Below are positions 3,121 through 30,972 of a DNA stretch of 64,000 bases, one piece after another. The stretch spans positions 57,136 to 121,135 of the forward strand of contig JAICXJ010000005.1 of the NCBI GenBank assembly GCA_025980465.1, given 5' to 3'. A program made the position numbers and the translations under genes. The notes beneath the pieces are model-generated. The model was not told the DNA's origin and made no database searches. It worked only from the letters and a program-made list of their open reading frames with translations. Every line of letters begins with the position of its first letter. The stretch's first letter is position 1. This DNA is from Frankiales bacterium (GTDB lineage Bacteria; Actinomycetota; Actinomycetes; JAFAQI01).

Positions 3121-3354
3121 GTGCCGGAACGCCTTCGCAACCTGCTCGGGGCCGCGATCGTCGCTGCGCTGTTCATCGCCGGCCTGGTCATCCACGGCGC
3201 GCTCGGTGGCGTCCTGCTGCTCATCACCGCGCTGATTCTCGGTGTGATGACCAGCGCGGTCTGGCATCACATCCCGTCACGCGGCCGACCGCTGCGCATT
3301 CTGATAGTCCTGGTGATCATCGCGCTGGCGCTGATCAACTTCGCCCTGGCCTGA
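3121..3354 (+). CDS. small membrane protein
   Basis: GTG start; VPERLRNLLGAAIVAALFIAGLVIHGALGGVLLLITALILG..., two predicted TM segments. Confidence 0.65.
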   Translation: MPERLRNLLGAAIVAALFIAGLVIHGALGGVLLLITALILGVMTSAVWHHIPSRGRPLRILIVLVIIALALINFALA

Positions 3355-26492: not shown

Positions 26493-28973
<2,481 letters not shown>

Positions 28974-29026: not shown

Positions 29027-29053
29027 AGAAAAGGCCCCCGCACATCGAGGGCC
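29027..29053 (-). terminator. intrinsic terminator in the leuS leader
   Basis: Minus strand GGCCCTC-GATGTGC-GGGGGCC-TTTTCT: 7-bp stem (one G-U), 7-nt loop, U tract; 54 nt upstream of leuS. Confidence 0.8.
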
Positions 29054-29084
29054 GCCGCGCTGAAGTGTTGCTTGTCAGCGCGGC
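29054..29084 (-). promoter_or_regulatory. leuS leader hairpin 1
   Basis: Minus strand GCCGCGCTGA-N11-TCAGCGCGGC, perfect 10-bp inverted repeat immediately upstream of the terminator hairpin. Confidence 0.75.
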
Positions 29085-29113
29085 TCGGGAAGGAGCAAGC
29101 GGTACGCCGTCAC
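29075..29113 (-). CDS. putative leuS leader peptide MTAYRLLLPEPR
   Basis: GTG ACG GCG TAC CGC TTG CTC CTT CCC GAG CCG CGC TGA; three consecutive Leu codons; stop inside the 5' arm of hairpin 1; GTG overlaps stop of upstream GGDEF gene. Confidence 0.6.
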   Translation of the reverse strand: MTAYRLLLPEPR

Positions 29114-30972
29114 GTCGCGAGTGTAACGCGTGGCATCTTCCGGACCTCGGTGATGCGGCCAGCGACCTCGACCCGGTTGCGCCCGTTTCGCTTCGCGGCG
29201 TACAGCGCCGCGTCGGCGGCGGCGACGATCAGGTCGGCGGTGTCCAGCGCCGCGCCGAGCTCGGCGATACCCACCGAGATCGTCACCGACAGATCACCCT
29301 TGGCTTTGGTTGCGTAGCGCTGCTCGACGACCCGCCGCAACCGCTCCGCGACGACTACGGCACCGTGGCTATCGGTGTCGCGGGCGAGTACGGCGAACTC
29401 CTCGCCGCCGTACCGGTAGACGGTGTCCCCGGCCCGCATCTGCTCGGCGAGGAGATGAGCCACCTCGACCAAGACGGCGTCGCCGACGGCATGGCCGAAG
29501 GTGTCGTTGACTCGCTTGAAGTGATCGATGTCGAGCATGAAGAACGACAGCGGGCGAGCGTGCCTGGCCGACCTCTCGATCTCGAGCATGAGGTCCCGGT
29601 CGAGCTGGCGCCGGTTGGCGAGCCCGGTGAGCGGGTCCGACAGCGACAGCGATTCGGTCAGCGCGTACATCAATGCGGCGTCGATGGCGGTTGCGGCTTG
29701 GGCCGCCATCGCTTCCAGCAGCTCGATCAGCTCGGGCTTCGGCTCGGTCACGCCGGGAAGCAACAGGATCTCGATGACGCCGACCAGCCGCGGCCCCTTC
29801 AGCATCGGCACGGCCAACGCGGTCGAGCGCATCACCGCCGGCTCGGTCTCGCCGGCGAGGCCGTCGCACAGGCACACCCGGTGGGTCTGCGCGGCTTGCC
29901 CGAGCCCGCCGTACCCGATCGATCGGGACGTGAACGGGACCAGCTCGCCGGTGATCGAGTCATGCTGCAGGGTGAGGCTGCGCCCGCCCTCCTCGACCAG
30001 CCACACCCGCGCTCGCGGTGCTTCGGCGAACCGGCGAGCGGCCGTCGCAACGACGGCGAGACTCCGGGCGAGGGTCGGGGTTTCCGACACCTCCCGGGCG
30101 AACGCCAGCACCATCTTCAGCCGGCGGTTGCTCGCGGAGACATCCGCCGCCCGGCTGGCCAGAGCCTCCTGCTGGAGACGTAGCGAGCCACTCATGTTGC
30201 TCAGCTCGTCGCGCAGCTCGAGCAGCTCGGCCGGTGCGGTCATCATCGGAGCAGCACCGAACTCACCGCGGCCGACAGCCCGGACCTTCTCCAGCAACAA
30301 GTCGATCGGCGCGACCACCCGCACCCTGAGCTGGTTGCGTCGCCGCAACGTCGTCACGGCGACCCCGGCGCCGATCATCAGCAGCACGGCGAACACGACG
30401 GCCAGGAGGATGACATCGGTACGGCGCTCACGCGACTGCGCGACAGTGGCCGCAGCGAGAACAGCGCGCTGCGACTCGGTGACGGCCGTGAACGAGGCCC
30501 GGCCGGAGGAGATGAACGCGGCGAGCGGTCCGAGACGGAGCTCGCCGTTGGCGGCCTTGATACTGCTACGAGTGGCCGGCGCCTCGGCCTGGGCCACCCA
30601 TCCGGTCTGCCACCGGCGGTCAGCCGCGACGAGCGCGTCGAGCCGGGACCTCGGGATGGCGTTGCTCAGTGTCACCAGGCCGTGTTCATCGGCGGCCACC
30701 CGCGCCTGAGCGGTCCGGAAGGTGACCAGCAAGATCGGATCGGGCGCGACGAGGTACGCGCGAATCGCGGACTCTTCGTTGAGCAACGCGCCCTGTAGAT
30801 CATTGCTCAGGGTCACTGCCCGCCCAGCGTCCGAGCTGCGCGGTTGGGCGAAGGCAACCAACCAGATCAGCGACCCCGCGAGGATCAGGGCGACGGCAGC
30901 GGCACCGGCGATGACGACGCGAAACGCCCGCGTCACCTCGTCCGCAAGTCCGCGGTCCCGGTCCCGTTCCAT
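29110..30972 (-). CDS. CHASE3-HAMP-GAF-GGDEF diguanylate cyclase
   Basis: CHASE3-like periplasmic region between TM segments, GAF, YRYGGEEF active site with RAGD I-site five residues upstream. Confidence 0.92.
   Translation of the reverse strand: MERDRDRGLADEVTRAFRVVIAGAAAVALILAGSLIWLVAFAQPRSSDAGRAVTLSNDLQGALLNEESAIRAYLVAPDPILLVTFRTAQARVAADEHGLVTLSNAIPRSRLDALVAADRRWQTGWVAQAEAPATRSSIKAANGELRLGPLAAFISSGRASFTAVTESQRAVLAAATVAQSRERRTDVILLAVVFAVLLMIGAGVAVTTLRRRNQLRVRVVAPIDLLLEKVRAVGRGEFGAAPMMTAPAELLELRDELSNMSGSLRLQQEALASRAADVSASNRRLKMVLAFAREVSETPTLARSLAVVATAARRFAEAPRARVWLVEEGGRSLTLQHDSITGELVPFTSRSIGYGGLGQAAQTHRVCLCDGLAGETEPAVMRSTALAVPMLKGPRLVGVIEILLLPGVTEPKPELIELLEAMAAQAATAIDAALMYALTESLSLSDPLTGLANRRQLDRDLMLEIERSARHARPLSFFMLDIDHFKRVNDTFGHAVGDAVLVEVAHLLAEQMRAGDTVYRYGGEEFAVLARDTDSHGAVVVAERLRRVVEQRYATKAKGDLSVTISVGIAELGAALDTADLIVAAADAALYAAKRNGRNRVEVAGRITEVRKMPRVTLAT

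Follow-up and report, generated by a model that had tools for sequence, protein, structure and literature searches.

In Streptomyces, classical attenuators were predicted before leuS of S. avermitilis and S. coelicolor by Seliverstov et al. in 2005 (PMC1262725). In S. lividans TK24, the leader peptide LeuL2, MRAVRLLLSEPR, precedes leuS together with a hairpin and a U tract, and it is leaderless according to RNA-seq (PMC8079986). For the ilvBNC operon of C. glutamicum, a terminator, an antiterminator, and an anti-antiterminator were shown by mutation (PMC11857589). The LEU element is described as having a pseudoknot that pairs to the leuA Shine–Dalgarno (SD) sequence and no clear terminator (PMC1262725). 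The trp and leu attenuators of E. coli control biosynthetic operons, whereas the element described here precedes an aminoacyl-tRNA synthetase gene. A later comparative study by Lopatovskaya et al., in 2010 (cited in PMC4833913), is said to have covered attenuation both in amino acid operons and in those for aminoacyl-tRNA.

The leuS attenuator type is already known in Streptomyces, and the present locus is a further case, in an uncultured Frankiales-like lineage. It lies in a window (the whole stretch of DNA analyzed) of 64,000 nucleotides from a draft genome of 3.4 Mb (G000), and its features are as follows:

29120–29125, minus strand: −10 box TACACT, 6 nt upstream of the leader GTG (from the sequence; the same TANNNT in relatives).
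29075–29113, minus strand: leader ORF MTAYRLLLPEPR*, GTG start (29113–29111), 12 codons (from the sequence; homologous leaders within the class and in another class).
29090–29098, minus strand: control codons TTG CTC CTT (Leu-Leu-Leu), with 6 nt between the last one and the hairpin arm CCGCGC (from the sequence).
29075–29084, minus strand: 5′ arm of hairpin H1, GCCGCGCTGA, with the leader stop codon inside (from the sequence; covariation).
29054–29063, minus strand: 3′ arm of H1, TCAGCGCGGC (from the sequence; covariation).
29029–29053, minus strand: predicted intrinsic terminator GGCCCTCG-ATGTG-CGGGGGCC-TTTT, no gap after H1 (from the sequence; predicted fold; relatives).
26493–28973, minus strand: leuS, leucyl-tRNA synthetase, the gene presumed to be regulated, with its own SD-like AGAGGGAAG (TIGR00396 leuS_bact, E 2.9e-284; Pfam editing and catalytic domains).

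The leader codons on the minus strand (29113–29075) are GTG ACG GCG TAC CGC TTG CTC CTT CCC GAG CCG CGC TGA; MTAYRLLLPEPR contains a run of control codons for the amino acid concerned. H1 consists of 10 perfect pairs, and the leader stop codon forms the final three bases of its 5′ arm. The terminator hairpin, GGCCCTC(G)/(C)GGGGGCC (29053–29033), is followed by TTTT at 29032–29029, which places a predicted intrinsic terminator (29053–29029) between the leader ORF and the downstream gene, whose identity as leuS is certain from its domain matches. The ATG of leuS, at 28973, lies 55 nt past the T tract. The predicted fold of the region comprises H1 and the terminator, with z = −2.5, and a covariance model whose training set included the window sequence gives the element 74.1 bits. 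A weak match of this model elsewhere in the window (3214–3302, 17.8 bits) was taken as chance. The upstream gene encodes a GAF-GGDEF protein, and its stop overlaps the leader GTG as GTGA. An earlier note on this DNA had described the leader, the Leu codons, the hairpin, the terminator, and the GTGA overlap, and direct reading of the minus strand bears them out to the base. The note also called TTG and CTT unusual; with 10.5% and 8.2% of the Leu codons in four neighboring window genes, respectively, they are indeed minor, though not extremely rare. The Streptomyces leuS attenuator (PMC1262725, PMC8079986) went unmentioned there.

The layout of LeuL2, i.e., leader, H1, and terminator directly before leuS with an LLLxEPR motif, is present in the window. 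Both cases involve the same gene, a 12-residue leader ending in LLLxEPR (leaderless, which is likely here as well), a hairpin, and a terminator with a U tract. Within the class set, the leaders of family f19 are letter for letter MRAVRLLLSEPR, and the window leader is nearly the same. Yet, the H1 loop is 11 nt in the window and ~33–36 nt in Streptomyces, and the window leader has a GTG start, Pro instead of Ser following the Leu run, a shorter distance from terminator to leuS, and an overlap with the stop of the upstream gene. With the E. coli trp and leu attenuators, the element shares a leader peptide with control codons, a first hairpin over the leader stop, and an intrinsic terminator, but it shows no clear antiterminator and a probable leaderless start without an SD sequence.

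The actinobacterial ilvB and leuA leaders and that of C. glutamicum ilvBNC resemble the element in having control codons for branched-chain amino acids and in being often leaderless. The LEU element differs in that the window element has a strong predicted terminator and precedes leuS. An assignment to the LEU element of leuA was rejected, the gene here being leuS with an intrinsic terminator between leader and gene. A pairing of CTCCTT with the terminator 3′ arm or the leuS SD in the style of the LEU element, considered by eye, was also dropped, as Streptomyces has CTTCTGCTT at that place. Separately, in a genome of another class (G174), the region L180 (1380–1760) carries a leader MTSTRIHRSALLLL*, a hairpin, and a T-rich terminator before leuA, whose protein reads as 2-isopropylmalate synthase; this leuA leader has a terminator, whereas the LEU element is described without a clear one. 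In family f39 (L179, L182, and L188, near 1500), leaders ending in LVLIT* or VLLIT*, with a hairpin and a terminator, stand upstream of a small conserved reading frame (~100 aa, MKFEFENGKYLGTAEWQGPG...), behind which lies a gene resembling that of acetolactate synthase (ilvB).

The leuS gene was found in 148 of 148 class genomes; 120 upstream stretches were taken, plus those of the closest relatives, and 123 regions were usable. Leader, hairpin, and terminator precede leuS in 50 of these 123 regions according to a script in which Leu-Leu was a requirement and a −10 box raised the score. Because these settings make the search partly circular, it was run again with codons ignored and on loci chosen regardless of the −10 box. 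With the covariance model, at least four more regions join the 50 (L114, L105, L110, and L121), for a total of at least 54 of the 123 regions, and L046 is an additional one outside the 123. The homologous leaders end in LL(L)-x-[E/G]-P-R-stop. Behind them come the covarying hairpin and, directly adjoining it, the terminator, which is predicted at this position in each of the 50 loci. Family f28 (L105, L110, and L121) has leaders of the LLLVQPR type and a terminator-like hairpin, AGCCCCTC...GGGGGGCTCTC, without a proper T tract.

Every sampled genome has the element in families f19 (11/11), f20 (5/5), f10 (4/4), and f12 (3/3), and none has it in f5 (0/8), f18 (0/11), f35 (0/5), and f25 (0/6). 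A phylum-wide search matched 34 of 297 genomes. In three genomes of another class, outside the training set (G228, G382, and G394), the matches have E values of 1e-15 to 8e-17 and each lies directly before leuS, with the leaders MAAALLLSWPR, MAAALLLSPPR, and MAAHLLLIWPR. In 84,980 species genomes, the 21-base core CTYCTTCCCGRGCCGCGCTGA is found without a mismatch 23 times. Twenty of these occurrences lie just before leuS, chiefly in uncultured ‘Frankiales’, ‘Frankiaceae’, and ‘Pseudonocardiales’ MAGs, one is at the end of a contig, where the downstream sequence is missing, and the remaining two, not near leuS, are in a Saccharibacteria MAG and S. mexicanus. Since the core also occurs a single time in the window and in 0 of 100 shuffles, chance is excluded for the element. 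The element is missing in L004 and L008, from a sister genus in the family of the window, and before many other leuS genes of the class. In L004 and L008, a −10 box, read by eye, immediately precedes the start codon of leuS; the leuS transcript itself thus appears to be leaderless there, and the attenuator was apparently lost by fusing the promoter to leuS.

The codon-blind search, for a hairpin of at least 8 pairs adjoining a terminator, yielded 49 tandems on the sense strand versus 4 on the reverse strand. Leu-Leu stands at a fixed distance from the hairpin in 47 of these 49 loci, with synonymous variation. Of the 50 loci, 41 have CTT as the last Leu codon, 9 have CTC, and none has CTG, although CTG occupies this position in L046, the later member outside the 50. 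The H1 arm starts 6 nt past the last Leu codon in 45/50. H1 itself, the first hairpin overlapping the leader end, is conserved as an RNA structure: two-sided compensatory changes occur at 7 of 11 pairs with 95% of cells paired, none of 500 shuffles is as good, and a one-column slide destroys the signal. Own H1 arms pair at −15.5 kcal/mol versus −12.7 kcal/mol for swapped arms (0/5000). In L045, L077, L088, L127, and L155, the stop codon lies just before the H1 arm while the spacing from Leu codon to arm is kept, which indicates that the Leu codons and the hairpin are under separate selection. As the arm stays in place when the stop moves, the PR end of the peptide is set by the RNA. The alignment of related leuS upstream regions, proposed as a check in the earlier note, thus returned conserved Leu-codon runs and a covarying hairpin, and all the parts recognized there (leader peptide with its Leu run, hairpin, terminator, and cognate leuS) recur in relatives.

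These results bear on two other explanations of the locus. That the terminator merely ends the upstream GGDEF transcript, with a chance leader ORF and a separate downstream promoter for leuS, would fit the overlap of the GGDEF stop with the GTG and a terminator sitting where that of an upstream gene could be. However, what the element accompanies in different families, and also in another class, is leuS and not the gene before it: the gene upstream of the leader is GGDEF in the window, sigma-factor-like in L212, and divergent in L205. With the Leu codons kept at a fixed place in 47/49 codon-blind loci as well, this explanation deserves almost no credence. T-box regulation of leuS is common in Firmicutes, where the gene is a frequent target, and a tRNA- or protein-binding leader (T-box-like, or autoregulation by LeuRS) with a secondary ORF might be considered on that ground. 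It is nevertheless very improbable, since Rfam searches, run on this region of the window and on seven relatives, found no relevant family, T-box included, the region holds H1 and the terminator only and leaves no room for a T-box, and the Leu codons are conserved as codons and not as sequence. As no Rfam family matches this RNA, it has probably been missed in annotation.

The position of the −10 box concerns the start of transcription. TANNNT lies 6–7 nt upstream of the start codon in 50 of 50 class leaders, a count that is partly circular because the choice of start rewarded a −10 box. It is also found there in 23 of 26 loci picked by leader and hairpin sequence alone, with the −10 box disregarded, and two of the three exceptions are the non-leuS matches; the background is 4% of ATG/GTG codons. 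Given this spacing almost everywhere and the RNA-seq report on LeuL2 of S. lividans (PMC8079986), the leader transcript is likely to be leaderless in this organism too, starting at or beside the GTG, and the leaderless start suspected in the earlier note gains support from the relatives. Through the GTGA overlap (29110–29113), the leader could also be reached by coupled translation on transcripts arriving from the GGDEF gene. In Cellulosimicrobium (L210, 4221–4241), a leader and an H1 arm precede leuS, but the −10 box is missing from its normal position, and inspection by eye shows no terminator.

Most likely, and by a considerable degree of confidence, the element is a ribosome-mediated transcription attenuator tying leuS expression to charged leucyl-tRNA. 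The anatomy, its conservation, the covariation of H1, the fixed codon–hairpin distance, the linkage to leuS, and the position of the −10 box are observed; the leaderless start in this organism, the stalling, and the antiterminator step are inferred. The leaderless transcript would start at the GTG and be translated at once by a 70S ribosome. When Leu-tRNA is ample, the ribosome would pass the Leu codons, read the stop inside H1, and depart; H1 and the adjoining terminator would then form, and RNA polymerase would halt before leuS. When charged tRNA-Leu is scarce, the ribosome would stall on the last Leu codons with its footprint extending to where the H1 5′ arm begins. H1 would open as a result, and the freed 3′ arm (UCAGCGCGG) could pair with the loop side of the terminator (GCGC:GUGC in the window), allowing readthrough into leuS. 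Counting against this model, only ~4 nt of the H1 arm should be covered when the ribosome sits at the last Leu codon, and many leuS genes of the class, among them those of L004 and L008, lack the element.

The antiterminator is the part without statistical support as a family feature. In the window, the H1 3′ arm forms only 4–5 pairs with the terminator loop side (GCGC:GUGC), in agreement with the lack of a strong antiterminator remarked in the earlier note. A pairing of 9 bases, UCAGCGCGG:CUGUGCUGA, exists in L149, and good competing pairings are also found in L151, L099, and L127. Across the set, own and swapped antiterminator pairings do not differ (p 0.29), permuting the terminator loops leaves the pairing equally good (14 families, p 0.36), and folding with the 5′ arm masked to +12 gives the antiterminator form in 17/50. 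As a result, how stalling would prevent termination still has to be inferred: either a short transient pairing would suffice, as argued for the overlapping hairpins of C. glutamicum ilvBNC (PMC11857589), or termination would be controlled otherwise.

One such possibility, which we regard as unlikely, is a leucine-sensing leader without a classical antiterminator, in which the ribosome, stalled or moving, would change termination by directly hindering H1 or the H1–terminator stack, or by staying close to RNA polymerase. Conservation is seen for H1 and for its immediate adjacency to the terminator, but for no antiterminator pairing. However, some lineages do have strong antiterminators (L149, L151, L099, and L127), the Streptomyces members were modeled with one (PMC1262725), and the related C. 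glutamicum ilvBNC attenuator uses terminator and antiterminator hairpins that overlap and have transitions of low energy (PMC11857589). There is likewise only a small chance that the element is a phylum-wide leaderless version without a conserved antiterminator, in which a ribosome, positioned by a leader at the extreme 5′ end and stalled at a fixed 6 nt from the hairpin, would act on termination by impeding H1 and the stacking of H1 on the terminator. If true, with the last codon mostly CUU and otherwise CUC, it would sense mainly the tRNA-Leu reading CUY.

For the attenuator tying leuS to charged leucyl-tRNA, the alignment yields covariation evidence for the first hairpin and fixes the distance between control codons and hairpin. 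The antiterminator, a step that is commonly assumed, turns out to be the unsupported part, which bears on how actinobacterial attenuators work. The comparison confirms a proposal made for a few Streptomyces, and extends it: the same leucine-rich leader attenuator precedes leuS in a large part of the class and in some of the phylum outside it. Collectively, the element is real and widely conserved in actinobacteria, and it very probably raises LeuRS when charged leucine tRNA is low.
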